Positions 449 through 46,302 of a stretch of DNA of 46,429 nucleotides are shown here, piece after piece. This DNA is from an uncultured Clostridia bacterium (lineage in GTDB: Bacteria > Bacillota > Clostridia > Christensenellales > CAG-314). Both the position numbers and the translations under genes were made by a program. The stretch covers positions 1 through 46,429 of the forward strand of contig CANQND010000012.1 in NCBI GenBank assembly GCA_947625115.1, read 5' to 3'. Under the pieces are notes generated by a model, which worked only from the letters and a program-made list of their open reading frames with translations, was not told the origin of the DNA and did no database searches. Position 1 is the first letter of the stretch, and each line of letters begins with the position of its first letter.

Positions 449-625
449 ACCGTCCCCGTCACGGCAAAATGGGTCCCCGCGCAAGTACGCCCATACTTGC
501 GTGGGAAGAGGAGCCGCCGACTGTTAGCGGTACCGAGCGCGCTTGCGCGCTTGGTGCTAACCACAGCCGTGCGGCGACGAGGGGAAGGGGGACCGCCGTT
601 AGGCGGTGGAAGAGGAATATCCGCA
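449..625 (+). repeat. Structured repeat module, copy 1
   Basis: A direct copy of 23827-23999. Nested inverted repeats predict a long hairpin: outer GCCGC/GCGGC, then GTTAGC/GCTAAC, then ACCGAGCGCG with CGCGCTTGGT. Further hairpins lie on either side: CGCAAGTA/TACTTGCG (about 480-505) and ACCGCC-gtta-GGCGGT (about 590-606). Differences from the right-hand copy fall mostly in loops or are compensated in stems. It ends just before the TATAAT at 650-655 that may serve the downstream aspartokinase. Confidence 0.75.
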
Positions 626-5095: not shown

Positions 5096-8000
5096 TTAAC
5101 CCTTTTTGAAAGTAAACGCGTTCAATAATGTGCTGATAAAATCTTTCAAAGGAATTTGTTTCCACACGTCCCTGTGTTCAATCTGTTCGGACGTAAGCTC
5201 GCCGTTCCAGCTGTGTTTATCGCGCCAATACTTTTCAAACGTCAAGTTTCCGCCAGATAGAGCATTTTGAGTAATATAATCTCCAATTGTAGTTATTTCG
5301 TCGGGGCAGAACACAACCGCGAGTTTGTAAATATTTTCATTATCGTTCATTTCCATCATTCCGCTATCTATCAAATCGCCGATGGTGAGGCTTGTGGCAA
5401 TATTGGAAAGGCTGGTGCCGTTCAATTCGTCTATTCTCAAATTGGAAATTTTGCCGTTTAGACCTTTTACCGCCTCGCAACCCTCGCCGTGAACGTGATC
5501 GGGACCCGTTTCAAAGCAGTTGTACCACACAAACCCGTAACAGGTAAAGTTGTGGCTGTGGTCGCGACCTTCGCTTTGTTTGCAGGTAAGTTGCGCTTCG
5601 TAGTAGACGTTGTGCTTGGTGTCCAAAAAGTACAGTTCGCTGCCGTCGGCAGATTTATATATTTGGTCGTGGCGCAAGCGACCCGGCGTTTCGTCCTTTA
5701 CAACTAATTCAGGAGATTTACCCGAAACGTCCACTTGTTTGCGCTTGTAGTTCATTGCAATTCCCACGTAGATAGCGTCCAATTCGCCGCTCAATTCGCC
5801 TATCTTTACTTGCGCCAATTCTTTAAGCAAGCCGTTGGAATTTTCCAAATCGAGTACATCTCCGAGCGGAGTGTCGTTTACTATGTTTGTGAGGTTGTCG
5901 CCGCTCAATTCGTCCATTCTGAGGCGCGCTATTCTGCCCAAAATGCCGTCTGCAAGCGTGTAGCAACCGTCATCGTGGTTGTCGCCGTGTTCGGGAGCGG
6001 TGCAATTCAACGTGTACCAATTGAAGCGGTAGCAGTCGGCGTTGTGGGTGTGGCTGTTTTCCTTGTTGGTACAGTTCAACGTCGCGTCGTACCAAGTTTC
6101 GCCGTCAAGGCGCGCGTAACTGTCCGTATCGGGTTTCTGTTTTACCTGCCCGTCGGTGTTAGCCACGTCAGTGTAAGTCGATGTATCCACGGGTTTTCTC
6201 ACATATTTGAGCAGCGCGCCGAGGTACATTTGGTCTATCTTTCCGCCGAGTTCGCTAAGCGGCACGTCGGCAAGAGATTGCAACGCGGCGGGAATGTCCT
6301 TGCCCATAACGTCGCTCAACGTAAAGGTCTGTATCGTTTCGTTGAGGTTGCCGAGGTTGCTCACCTTTTCGTTGGCAAGTTTGCCCATCATTCCCGTAAC
6401 GGTTTCGCCGTCTTTTGTCCAAACGTACTTGCCGCTGTCGGGTTCGAGTTCGTCGCCCTTTTCGTAACCGAAAAAGTCGCCCAAGTACATATTGTTTATC
6501 GCCTCGTTCATATTGCCGAGTTCGGTATCGCCCAAACTTTTCAGCACGTCGGGGATGTCCTCGCCCATAACGTCGTTGAGGGTAAACGATTTTATCGTTT
6601 CGTTGAGATTGCCGAGGTTGCCTATCTTTTCGTTGGCAAGTTTACTCATCATTCCCGTAACTTCGGTTCCCATTTCCTCGTCTGTGTACCAATGGTATTT
6701 TTCGTCCTGCCCATCTAACAATTCGCCTTGGGTGTAGCCCAACACGCCGCCGAGGTACAAGTCGTCAATAGCTTCGCTCATATTGCCGAGCGGTGCGTCT
6801 TTCAAGCCCTGCAACTGCTTGGGGATCTTGTCGCCCATAACTTCGCCGAGCGTGTATTTCATAATGTCCAACGTACTCAACCCCTCTACGGTCTTGTCGG
6901 CGATCTTCGCCATTATGCCCGTAACGGGTTCGCCGTTGCCGTCAAGCCAGCCCTCTTCCGTCTTGGTGTAGCCCATCAGTTCGCCCACGTGCAACGAGTT
7001 TATCGCCGCGCCGAGATTGCCGACGGTGGTGTCTTTCAGCGAACGCAACTGCGAGGGTATTTTTTCCTCGCCGCCCATAACTTGGCTCAACGTGAGCGTG
7101 TCTATCATTCCGTTGAGGTCGTTCATATCGTTTATCTGCTTGTTGGCGAACACTTCGGTAAGGTCCTTTACCTCTTCCTCGCCGTTGGTCCACACAAAGC
7201 CGTAACAGCCCGCCACGTTGTGCGAGTGTTCCTCTTTGCCGCAGGTGTACTCGGGCGCGACGCCGCATTCTTCGCCGTGAGTGTGTTCCTCTATCGCGCA
7301 AATCAACTTGCCCTGATACCAAGTTTTGTTGTCGGGCGACAGTCCGAGAACGTTGCCCTCCTCGTCCAAAACGACGTACTTGGCAACTTCGTCCTCCTCG
7401 CCGTGCGGTTGAGTTTTGTACAGTTCTGTCACTTCGCCTGCGGGTTTTTCTATTTCCGTACGCTCAAAGCCCATCAACTGCCCGATGTACATCGAGTCGA
7501 TACCGCCGTTCATCAATTCGCCGATGGTCATATCCGACAAGTTCTCGAAAATTCCGCTCATTTCCTGCCCTTCGAGCAAGTCTTTGAGGGGAATGTTCGT
7601 CACTTTGTCCATAAGGACGTTGCTGTCGCCGCCCATAAGTTCGCCCACTGTGAGGTCGGCAAGCGCGGCGTAAATGCCCGTTGCGTCCTCTTCGGATTCC
7701 GTTTTCCACACGTAACCGAAACAACTTTCGTCGTGAACGTGATCCTCTTCTTCGTTGCGGCAGGTAAGTTTTGCCTGATACCAAATTCCGTCCTCTTGCT
7801 TGACGTACAGTTCGCCGTCCGAAAGTTCTTTGCGCAAAACGTTGGGTACGTCAGTGGCGGAGTAGTCGCTTGCGTCCGTTTCAACGCGGCTCAACCCGAG
7901 CAGTTGCCCGAGGTACAGCCCGTCGAACACCGAACCGCTCATCAAGTCGGCAATGGTGTAGTTCACAAAGTTTTCCAACAGTCCGTCCACCGTTACCGAG

Positions 8001-9328
8001 TCGCCTATCAATTCGCCTATGGGCAAATTCATAAACTTGCTCATCAACAAATCGGAGTCGCCGCTCGTCAGCATACCTACCGTAACGTCGGCAATGGCGG
8101 CGTAAACTCCCGTTGCGGGTACGTAACTCACTCCGTCGATAACCAATTCGTCGGCGTGGTCGTGTTCCTCGGTGCATTGCGTGTACCAAGCAAAGCCGAA
8201 ACAGTCCATATCGTGAGTGTGTTCCTCTTTGCCGCAGGTGTAGTCGGGCGCGTCGCCGCATTCGTCAGTGTGAGTGTGTTCCTCTTTGGTACAGCACAGC
8301 CGCGCCTCGTAAACTTCCGCTTCCTTTTCGGGGTCGTCGTCTGCTATCGACAGGGCGTAGCCGTCCTCTTTGGATAGCAACGTCACGTTGTCTTTCGTAA
8401 TTGAGGTGGCGGTGTAGCCCTCCGCGCTTGCAAGTTTGTTGCGTTGCAAGCTCACCAAGCCGCCGAGGTACACCCCGTTGAGAATGTCGTCGGGGTTGAG
8501 GTTGCCCTCTTCGTCTATCAAGTCGGTTATGGCGTTGTCGCCGAGGAAAGCCGTCAGATATTGACTGCCGTCGCCCAACAGTTCCGTCAAGGGCAGTTTG
8601 CCGAGTTCGTCGAACGCGCCGCCCTCCTTAAATTGCAAAAACATATTGCCCGTCAGTCCGCCGCCCACAAGGGGTCCCAATTTGGCTTGACCGACAGCCC
8701 ACATCAAGGAGTTGTCCTCCGTTCCCTGTTCTGCGTCGGCAAAGGTGCGTTCCAACGGCAACATTCCGAGTGCCACTTCCGCAATGCGCACTTCCGCCAG
8801 AACTGTTGCAATGCCGTTTTCCGCAAACAGTTCCGAAACGGAGTACGCCGAGAGTTTTTCCAAAAGGGTATCGGGGAACATCGGCTCGGCACTGCCGTCC
8901 TCGCCGTCCGAACCCGTAAACATATTTATCAACGCGGGGATAACGCTTACTTTTATCTGAGCTTGCGCCTGTTCCCTATCGCCGCCTATCAATTCAAAAA
9001 TAGGTATGTCAAGCACTTCCTGCGGCACTTGTTTGCCGCCGAAAAGCTCGTTTGGATCTATTTGGTAGGTTTCGCAAAAGTCGCCGAAAGTAAAGTACTT
9101 GCCGTTTTCGCCAATGCCCAACTTTTCGCGATAGAGCGCGCTTACCGAGTTGTAGATGTCGTACAGCGACAGTTGTGCAAGTTCGCCCAAATATTTGTCG
9201 CTGTCGGGAATCCAATCGCCGGGTTTGGCGACGGTGGCGGCGAATAGCAGTCCTCCGGCAACGGCTCCGAAAACGAGTATGATACCGAATATGACTCCCA
9301 AAAAGAACGCCAAAATTCTTCTGCCCAT
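5096..9328 (-). CDS. Giant membrane-anchored repeat protein with His/Cys loops
   Basis: Not assigned to a known family. A 1410-residue acidic protein. Residues 5-33 form a single hydrophobic segment after MGRR, an uncleaved anchor or signal peptide, and no LPXTG motif is seen. Residues 40-340 are unique. From about 240 on, short units such as LPIGELIG, YTIADLM and MYLGQLLGY recur, with clear 85-90 residue repeats from about 785 to 1045 (each with VTGxMxKLA, TLxDVMG, LGNMxEAI and YLGxxxGY). Five inserts (near 345-390, 522-542, 676-712, 1085-1123, 1248-1285) are rich in CxxEEHTHxxxC-like motifs and usually end CYGFVW. An AGAGGT site precedes the ATG. It lies 12 bp after gdpD in one operon. Likely a surface or cell-envelope protein. 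Metal binding by the His/Cys inserts is inference. Confidence 0.85.
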   Translation of the reverse strand: MGRRILAFFLGVIFGIILVFGAVAGGLLFAATVAKPGDWIPDSDKYLGELAQLSLYDIYNSVSALYREKLGIGENGKYFTFGDFCETYQIDPNELFGGKQVPQEVLDIPIFELIGGDREQAQAQIKVSVIPALINMFTGSDGEDGSAEPMFPDTLLEKLSAYSVSELFAENGIATVLAEVRIAEVALGMLPLERTFADAEQGTEDNSLMWAVGQAKLGPLVGGGLTGNMFLQFKEGGAFDELGKLPLTELLGDGSQYLTAFLGDNAITDLIDEEGNLNPDDILNGVYLGGLVSLQRNKLASAEGYTATSITKDNVTLLSKEDGYALSIADDDPEKEAEVYEARLCCTKEEHTHTDECGDAPDYTCGKEEHTHDMDCFGFAWYTQCTEEHDHADELVIDGVSYVPATGVYAAIADVTVGMLTSGDSDLLMSKFMNLPIGELIGDSVTVDGLLENFVNYTIADLMSGSVFDGLYLGQLLGLSRVETDASDYSATDVPNVLRKELSDGELYVKQEDGIWYQAKLTCRNEEEDHVHDESCFGYVWKTESEEDATGIYAALADLTVGELMGGDSNVLMDKVTNIPLKDLLEGQEMSGIFENLSDMTIGELMNGGIDSMYIGQLMGFERTEIEKPAGEVTELYKTQPHGEEDEVAKYVVLDEEGNVLGLSPDNKTWYQGKLICAIEEHTHGEECGVAPEYTCGKEEHSHNVAGCYGFVWTNGEEEVKDLTEVFANKQINDMNDLNGMIDTLTLSQVMGGEEKIPSQLRSLKDTTVGNLGAAINSLHVGELMGYTKTEEGWLDGNGEPVTGIMAKIADKTVEGLSTLDIMKYTLGEVMGDKIPKQLQGLKDAPLGNMSEAIDDLYLGGVLGYTQGELLDGQDEKYHWYTDEEMGTEVTGMMSKLANEKIGNLGNLNETIKSFTLNDVMGEDIPDVLKSLGDTELGNMNEAINNMYLGDFFGYEKGDELEPDSGKYVWTKDGETVTGMMGKLANEKVSNLGNLNETIQTFTLSDVMGKDIPAALQSLADVPLSELGGKIDQMYLGALLKYVRKPVDTSTYTDVANTDGQVKQKPDTDSYARLDGETWYDATLNCTNKENSHTHNADCYRFNWYTLNCTAPEHGDNHDDGCYTLADGILGRIARLRMDELSGDNLTNIVNDTPLGDVLDLENSNGLLKELAQVKIGELSGELDAIYVGIAMNYKRKQVDVSGKSPELVVKDETPGRLRHDQIYKSADGSELYFLDTKHNVYYEAQLTCKQSEGRDHSHNFTCYGFVWYNCFETGPDHVHGEGCEAVKGLNGKISNLRIDELNGTSLSNIATSLTIGDLIDSGMMEMNDNENIYKLAVVFCPDEITTIGDYITQNALSGGNLTFEKYWRDKHSWNGELTSEQIEHRDVWKQIPLKDFISTLLNAFTFKKG

Positions 9329-23614: not shown

Positions 23615-23775
23615 CCGACCAAACGCAATGCTGTCGCTCGGGTATTCGCCTGAGGACAGTGAAGTTTTGCGCTATGCGCAAAGTGAAGTTGTGCTGTCGC
23701 ACAGTGAAGTACGCTTGCGGCGAGTGAAGTTTGCGGCATAGCCGCAAGTTGAGGACGGGCGTAAACGCCCGAACT
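23615..23775 (+). repeat. GTGAAGT-linked hairpin array
   Basis: Starts with a 28-bp unit (23615-23642) that recurs exactly at 24205-24232. Then GTGAAGT occurs at 23659, 23683, 23704 and 23724, about every 21 bp. Between copies lie different small hairpins: TTTGCGC-tat-GCGCAAA, TGTGC-tgtc-GCACA, a GCG-rich stem and TTGCGGC-ata-GCCGCAA. The last 62 bp are the inverted module seen at 372-433. No gene is seen from 23559 to 24937. Confidence 0.75.
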
Positions 23776-23826: not shown

Positions 23827-23999
23827 ACCGTCCCCGTCACGGCAAAATGGGTCCCCGCGCAAGTACGCAAATACTTGCGTGGGAAGAGGAGCCGCCGACT
23901 GTTAGCGGTACCGAGTGCGTTTACGCGCTTGGTGCTAACCAAAGCCGTGCGGCGACGAGGGGAAGGGGGACCACGAAGTGGTGGAAGAGGAATATCCGA
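23827..23999 (+). repeat. Structured repeat module, copy 2
   Basis: A direct copy of 449-625. The loop of CGCAAGTA/TACTTGCG changes from cgccca to cgcaaa. ACCGAGTGCG with loop ttta replaces ACCGAGCGCG with loop cttg, keeping pairing through a G-T pair. ACCAC-gaa-GTGGT replaces ACCGCC-gtta-GGCGGT. These changes keep base pairing and so support a folded RNA or single-stranded DNA. Confidence 0.75.
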
Positions 24000-24010
24000 A
24001 ACAAATTTTC

Positions 24011-24204: not shown

Positions 24205-24420
24205 CCGACCAAACGCAATGCTGTCGCTCGGGCGTTCTACCAAAAAAGGCTTCGCTTCGGGTGGCGAGTCCACAACCGCGTTAAAGGCTTCTCTTGGGGA
24301 CGCAAGAGTGCGCCACGCAAAGCAAACGTGTCCGTAGGAAACAAGTTTGCAACTGAAATAAAGGCTTCTCTTGACGACGCAAGAGAAGCTGGCACCGATA
24401 GGTGACTGATGAGTTTCGAC
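24205..24420 (+). repeat. Hairpin module with ATGAGTTTCGAC end
   Basis: Begins with the 28-bp unit also at 23615. It contains repeated GGCTTCTCTT units; the one at 24363-24390 forms a hairpin with AAGAGAAGCT. It ends with CACC-gata-GGTG and GTGACTGATGAGTTTCGAC (24402-24420). The 24363-24420 part is the reverse of 198-254. Confidence 0.7.
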
Positions 24421-24520
24421 CTGAAAAGCAAGTAGTCTACCTGCAATCTGCGCGGGCAAGTTGGGGCTTTTCTAACGCCCCAACGCAGTCGTCACCGATA
24501 GGTGACTGATGAGTTTCGAC
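24421..24520 (+). repeat. 42-bp identical module plus second ATGAGTTTCGAC unit
   Basis: Positions 24450-24491 are identical to 34-75 (42 of 42). They are followed by CACC-gata-GGTG and a second GTGACTGATGAGTTTCGAC (24502-24520). Here GTTTCG can pair with the following CGAAAC (stem across actac). Confidence 0.75.
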
Positions 24521-45834: not shown

Positions 45835-46302
45835 TTAGCGAACCGGCTTGTCTTTCGCAAATGGATCATTTATCTCGTATATAGTCATTTGCTCCATTCG
45901 TTTATCTTCGCTAAGTTGGTTCGCTATGTATTCTTTTATCTTTTTTGTATTCTTGCCAACCGTGTCGACATAATACCCTCTGCACCAAAACTCTCTGTTT
46001 CGGTACTTAAATTTGAGATTTCCGAATTTTTGGTATATTATTACACTGCTTTTGCCTTTCAAAAATCCCATAAATCCCGAAACACTCATTTTTGGTGGTA
46101 TCTTTACACACATGTGTACATGATCGGGACACACTTCTGCTTCAATTATTTCTACTCCTTTCCATTCGCACAACTGACGTAGAATTGCTCCAATCTCTCT
46201 ACGCTTTTCTCCATAAAACACTTTTCTCCTATACTTGGGCGCAAAAACTATATGGTACTTGCAATTCCACGTCGTATGTGCTAAACTTTCTGTGTCATTC
46301 AT
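45835..46302 (-). CDS. tnpA: IS200/IS605-family transposase TnpA
   Basis: 155-residue single-strand DNA transposase of the peel-and-paste type. The HUH motif is HVH (61-63) in CPDHVHMCV. The catalytic tyrosine is most likely Y125 in EYIANQ, with Q129 completing the metal site. GYYVDTVG (109-116) is a typical family block. Length is normal and intact. Translation starts at ATG 46302 (minus strand); the AGGAGG ribosome site lies inside the 3' arm of the leader hairpin. Confidence 0.95.
   Translation of the reverse strand: MNDTESLAHTTWNCKYHIVFAPKYRRKVFYGEKRREIGAILRQLCEWKGVEIIEAEVCPDHVHMCVKIPPKMSVSGFMGFLKGKSSVIIYQKFGNLKFKYRNREFWCRGYYVDTVGKNTKKIKEYIANQLSEDKRMEQMTIYEINDPFAKDKPVR

Follow-up and report, generated by a model that had tools for sequence, protein, structure and literature searches.

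Fold of the Two Window Copies

Two similar segments of the analyzed window (the whole 46,429-nt stretch of DNA) differ in some of their stems while remaining able to fold, which raises the question of whether the fold is maintained by selection and of what kind of element carries it. The original prediction compared positions 449–625 with 23827–23999 and explained the paired changes by selection on folding of RNA or single-stranded DNA. All of the pairings that it claimed were found at the corresponding positions: hairpin P1 (CGCAAGTA/TACTTGCG) differs between the two window copies only in its loop (CGCCCA and CGCAAA), the ACCGAG(C/T)GCG stem retains its pairing through a G.T pair, and the outer GTTAGC/GCTAAC and GCCGC/GCGGC pairs are identical in both copies. 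The 3′ mini-hairpin ACCGCC-GTTA-GGCGGT of copy 1 (592–607, + strand), which is followed by GGAAGAGGAATAT, is likewise replaced in copy 2 by ACCAC-GAA-GTGGT (23970–23982, + strand).

Copy 1 is a composite of shell, core and 3′ hairpin located at 449–627 on the + strand, and its conserved 110-nt core, GGGN-P1-AGAGGA-P2/P3-GACGA, occupies positions 471–580 (+; 102.1 bits with R1, a covariance model built from the source genus). Within the core, the 12-pair hairpin P1 (476–505; arms 476–487 and 494–505) is followed by the invariant GAGGA (508–512), by stem P2 (513–575; arms 513–517 and 571–575) and by the invariant GACGA at the core end (576–580), all on the + strand. P2 encloses stem P3 (523–561, +), which consists of a lower part (523–528/556–561), the bulge GGT (529–531), an upper part (532–541/546–555) and a loop (542–545). 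A shell stem pairing CCCCGTC (454–460) with GAC..GGGG (576–578 and 581–584) spans 454–584 (+). Copy 2 (23827–24002, +) lies within a 1379-nt gap full of repeats, and its 110-nt core is located at 23849–23958 (+; 103.1 bits with R1). The motifs GAGGA and GACGA flank P2 and could oppose each other as G.A, A.G, G-C, G.A and A.G, a sheared tandem GA arrangement that is inferred; their facing G-C was invariant in 43 of 43 class-level sequences. The predicted folding energy of the window segment 471–580 was −63.8 kcal/mol, compared with −44.5 ± 3.7 kcal/mol in dinucleotide shuffles (z = −5.2); thus, the fold of the copy 1 core is not due to chance. An intrinsic terminator was rejected, since no G+C-rich hairpin followed by a T run was found within 449–627.

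Core and Shells

Alignment of the copies of the source genome and of its congeners revealed a constant core of about 110 nt in the order GGGN, 12-pair P1, AGAGGA, P2, P3 with a conserved 3-nt bulge, and GACGA, surrounded by variable outer shells. It should be noted that the trimming patterns were centred on the conserved motif, so that the invariance of AGAGGA and GACGA is partly a selection effect within the genus set; the class-level matches described below were likewise fitted to a model, yet their stems have little sequence in common with it.

The usual shell in the source genome was CCGTCCCC..GGGGAAGGGGGACC-hairpin-GGTGGAAGAGGAATAT, and the shell type of copy 1 was also present without a core at other loci. 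At four loci of this genome, the core sat in a long shell of an unrelated kind and had different P2 and P3 stems, GACAGC/GCTGTC standing in place of GTTAGC/GCTAAC and another paired stem in place of GCCGC/GCGGC. Nested and tandem core copies were also present. The shells (CCGTCCCC..GGGG, tRNA-terminator shells and others) may be host repeats that received the core or recombined with it.

Several other repeats were noted alongside. The window carries, at 24359–24420 and 24490–24520, a repeat module, GGCTTCTCTT..AAGAGAAGC plus (G/T)CACC-hairpin-GGTGACTGATGAGTTTCGAC, whose two-hairpin plan resembles that of the element's shell; the GGCTTCTCTT..AAGAGAAGC module hosts a core in genome G019. A tandem hairpin array at 23650–23766 has arms that differ but remain self-complementary, joined by a constant AGTGAAGTT linker, and similar arrays (AACTTCAC-hairpin) occur near cores in congeners. 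The P1 sequence is common to different core types of the source genome and unlike between genomes, as if homogenized in each genome.

Distribution of the Element

In the source genome (rabbit-gut Clostridia; 1.57 Mb, 83 contigs), BLAST with the window element gave 77 matches, about 25 of them near full length, and model R1 identified 32 cores. The two window copies are thus members of a dispersed family numbering about 30 copies. A DNA sequence search detected the element in 8 of 61 relatives, all within the genus, and a pattern search in named genomes returned rabbit-gut Clostridia MAGs together with chance matches. The covariance-model search of related genomes suggested in the original prediction was extended from the genus to the class. 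R1 matched 14 of 25 congeners (12 of them strongly) and gave no match in other genera of the same family; the strong congeners carried from 1 to 56 copies each, and both copy number and position varied among congeners. Across the order, R1 matched 13 further genomes in other families, with up to 10 full-length copies each, in which the order of motifs was the same and the stem sequences were new. A refined model, R2, constructed from the genus and order sets and applied at E ≤ 1e-4, identified the element in 73 of 391 class genomes belonging to 51 of 223 genera, many with at least 10 copies. The matches at 40 inspected class loci were full length, typically GGGGTCCCCGAAAAGTCG..CGACTTTTTGGGGAGAGGAG..GACGA, and the lower half of P3 was not conserved beyond the genus. 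Consequently, beyond the two copies compared originally, this is a high-copy, dispersed and insertion-polymorphic element found class-wide.

A phage origin was rejected: the window element had no match in phages or plasmids, and in IMG/VR the genus pattern gave no match and the class pattern two. One Subdoligranulum variabile plasmid carries a match. Copies of the source-genome type were also observed in two bins from rabbit gut that bear the labels Lachnospiraceae and Gastranaerophilales (L080 and L104), as a result of either misbinned contigs or transfer.

Covariation and Strand Bias

Two copies from one genome are insufficient to establish selection on the fold, because template switching or gene conversion, by which palindromes are repaired in one step (PMC8794818), can also explain them. 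Wider comparison gave double changes in 25 of 37 pairs among 21 diverse congener sequences, in 27 of 37 among 92 distinct genus sequences and in 36 of 37 among 43 distinct class-level sequences. The class covariation score was 0.65, against 0.17 in shuffled alignments and less than 0.10 when the structure was slid; the signal was also lost with slid structures in both genus sets. Covariation beyond shuffled and slid controls, the criterion for a structured non-coding RNA motif, was therefore met. Wobble pairs were distributed unequally, with 215 G.U versus 55 C.A in the genus (22 C.A without two weak internal pairs) and 72 versus 7 in the class (weak helices left out). As the complementary strand would carry mismatches at these positions, the + strand alone is constrained to fold and is the selected strand.

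A purely mutational origin, in which template switching and gene conversion keep the palindromes perfect without selection, is accordingly highly unlikely. This mechanism has been documented (PMC8794818), the window is rich in other self-complementary modules, the arms of the 3′ mini-hairpin change as wholes, and P1 is common to both core types of the source genome. However, this explanation predicts no strand preference and is largely refuted by the roughly ten-fold excess of G.U over C.A, and it cannot preserve the unpaired AGAGGA and GACGA, the 3-nt bulge and the stem order throughout the class. The strand-biased wobble thus argues against neutral drift and template switching alone. The original preference for folding selection over neutral drift is supported, although not by the two window copies themselves, since it rests on the class-level double changes (36 of 37), the strand-specific wobble and the retention of unpaired AGAGGA and GACGA while the stems change.

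Two observations would have overturned that preference, namely, stem-breaking substitutions as frequent as loop changes and conservation of a coding frame. Neither was obtained. Among 22 cores of the source genome, 23 variant cells were counted in 76 stem columns versus 37 in 34 loop columns, and fewer than 1% of pair cells were broken; the source genome alone provides weaker evidence, as its wobble-making and pair-breaking changes did not differ significantly. A coding repeat was rejected because the copies differ by frame-shifting 1-nt indels and none of 67 genus cores overlapped a gene called from codon usage.

Position Relative to Genes

In the genus, the upstream gene pointed toward the core for 37 of 48 cores (37:11), and the gaps holding cores were convergent in 18 cases versus divergent in 3. 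In tandem gaps, the core was in the sense orientation 19 times versus 8 times antisense (p = 0.05). The copies therefore avoid genes and divergent promoter gaps and favour the 3′ side of genes. Class copies, for which gene calls were cruder, revealed no clear strand bias; at seven loci (L226, L227, L238, L239, L241, L246 and L252), the core lay precisely in the interval separating a stop codon from the following Shine–Dalgarno sequence or ATG. In low-copy lineages, many copies adjoined tRNA genes or were flanked by directly repeated tRNA, mnmG or terminase fragments. At L101, L115, L147, L214, L222, L204, L148 and L197, the core had an intact tRNA gene on one side and a duplicated tRNA fragment on the other.

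The main rival to a mobile element is a regulatory or stabilizing RNA role, in which a domesticated or selfish RNA element present in transcripts would act as a structured spacer at gene ends, blocking 3′ exonucleases or setting translation of the next gene. The constraint on the + strand alone, the location 3′ of genes with the sense excess in tandem gaps, and the class copies placed directly between stop codon and translation start are all in its favour. On the other hand, window copy 2 lies beyond an apparent intrinsic terminator of the upstream gene, orthologous genes manage without the element, its copy number and position vary among congeners, and no consistent downstream gene was noticed. 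This role is regarded as unlikely, though it remains a serious contender.

The reading that we prefer, with no more than even confidence and without expression data behind it, is that of a mobile, non-coding element about 110 nt long whose working form is a folded single strand and whose enzyme has not been identified. The strand-specific fold, the high and variable copy number, the spread in the genus and class, the sites empty in relatives and the lack of an open reading frame were demonstrated. According to the proposed mechanism, the + strand would fold into P1, the linker AGAGGA and the P2/P3 stem closed by GACGA, and this folded strand, as ssDNA or RNA, would be recognized in trans by a copying or moving enzyme. 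Since it is the folded strand that would be recognized, the stem sequences could drift, unlike the fold and the AGAGGA/GACGA motif. The host would tolerate copies in the least harmful positions, such as those after genes, in terminator–promoter intervals and in loops of other palindromic repeats.

Insertion Sites and Ends

The gap that contains copy 2, between a Mbeg1-like gene and RarA, is 1379 nt long, compared with about 125–220 nt and no core in six congeners. At L246, the core lies at the stop/start overlap of two phage head–tail genes, which adjoin in homologous phages (...RLDREWKV* directly into MGFGKM). This near-clean case is compatible with insertion accompanied by a target duplication of at most 2 nt (TA). 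Across the copies, neither a fixed target site nor a target duplication of constant length was observed, those other than the copy at L246 having either no duplication or long direct repeats. Terminal inverted repeats were absent, as the core ends, (TA)GGG.. and ..GACGA, are not inverted copies of each other. Many order-level copies were located between long direct repeats of neighbouring genes, which points, on sequence evidence, to local duplication as one further way in which the element may multiply.

At two loci (L216:675–783 and L213:878–990), the core was found inside homologous coding genes near the 3′ end. Exact removal of ATA..GACGA would restore the frame in both, and the L216 gene is uninterrupted in its paralogue L217, as would be expected if the core were a very small intron, removed by self-splicing or in some other way. 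This explanation is extremely unlikely: almost every copy is intergenic, known self-splicing introns are far larger than 110 nt, no Rfam intron matched, and no more than about 20 C-terminal residues are missing from the two genes, so that tolerated truncation explains both cases.

Search for a Mobilizing Enzyme

Typical of the family of IS200/REP-associated Y1 transposases are hairpins of a single strand bordered by motifs, with target duplication slight or absent, and the element could be a REP-like substrate of such enzymes, that is, a non-autonomous ssDNA transposon. Within the genus, Y1 (IS200-type) transposases were found in 10 of 12 core-bearing genomes versus 2 of 13 others (p = 0.001), a result confounded by phylogeny. 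However, there was no association across the class sample (13 of 20 versus 10 of 20, p = 0.52), seven genomes with many cores (G534, G460, G500, G320, G613, G437 and G183) had no Y1 match, and cores were located near only one, decayed, of the 12 Y1 loci in the genus. Moreover, the Y1 protein encoded in the window is a plain IS200 protein. A REP-like substrate is thus quite unlikely, and Y1/RAYT as a general partner was rejected. The window Y1 gene itself (45835–46302, − strand; IS200/IS605 family) has palindromic flanks, and two further Y1 matches in the source genome are decayed or partial.

A retron, a group II intron or another element driven by reverse transcriptase was rejected, as no more than 4 of 25 congeners carried the reverse transcriptase domain and the source genome lacked it. 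An insertion sequence with an rve integrase was rejected as a partner as well (5 of 25 congeners, no match in the source genome).

Comparison with Known Elements

Integron attC sites are imperfect hairpins located 3′ of genes that are conserved in structure rather than sequence and used strand-selectively. The element resembles them in all of these respects, but inspection of its invariant columns revealed no R′/R″ boxes (RYYYAAC/GTTRRRY), no integron integrase is linked to it, and its copies are scattered among housekeeping genes. BOX elements of Streptococcus pneumoniae are modular intergenic repeats with nested or repeated modules and possible structured RNA. The element is alike in these respects, whereas its sequence, architecture and host differ and BOX consists of boxA/B/C units. 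REP/BIME sequences with RAYT (PMC2817692) are similar in being dispersed intergenic palindromes with mosaic arrays, a gene-end preference and species-specific amplification; unlike them, the element is 110 nt long with two stems rather than a short palindrome, and its structure rather than its sequence is conserved across the class. The element satisfies the REP/RAYT criterion that palindromes be dispersed outside genes, in mosaic arrays close to gene ends, but not that of an obligate RAYT flanked by repeats, no cognate RAYT having been found. MITEs, ERIC and RU (PMC10969869, PMC2759123) are, like the element, non-coding, about 100–180 bp, multi-copy and insertion-polymorphic, but the element lacks terminal inverted repeats, showed no constant target duplication in the copies compared and has a fold conserved on one strand only. 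REP/BIME, BOX, MITE and attC are the nearest known kinds, and for each of REP/RAYT, MITE and attC one or more of the defining features that were checked is missing from the element.

The original statement that the repeat belongs to no named RNA family also held: Rfam 15 gave no match at gathering cut-offs, and permissive scans gave no relevant match. No description of the element was found in the literature by sequence-string or concept search. Surveys of structured RNAs in gut microbiomes list thousands of candidates (PMC8040213), which were left outside the comparison. Elsewhere in the window, a 1410-aa open reading frame (5096–9328, − strand) had no Pfam match.

Significance

A bolder reading, less probable than not, is that the element is among the smallest non-coding mobile elements, spreading class-wide as a folded single strand of RNA or ssDNA by a route unlike those of REP/RAYT, MITEs, introns and integrons, and that the invariant AGAGGA/GACGA motif is what a host or phage enzyme, so far unidentified, recognizes. 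Its presence in about one-fifth of the sampled Clostridia genomes, often in at least 10 copies, with very strong covariation and no Rfam match, would mean that the annotation of gut bacterial genomes has a large gap, and the hundreds of independent variants of one fold provide a natural series for reading the recognized motif. If the element is mobilized, it points to an unknown mobilizing enzyme; if it acts as RNA, expression would be affected at many gene ends. Under either reading, it breaks assemblies and confuses surveys of RNA motifs.
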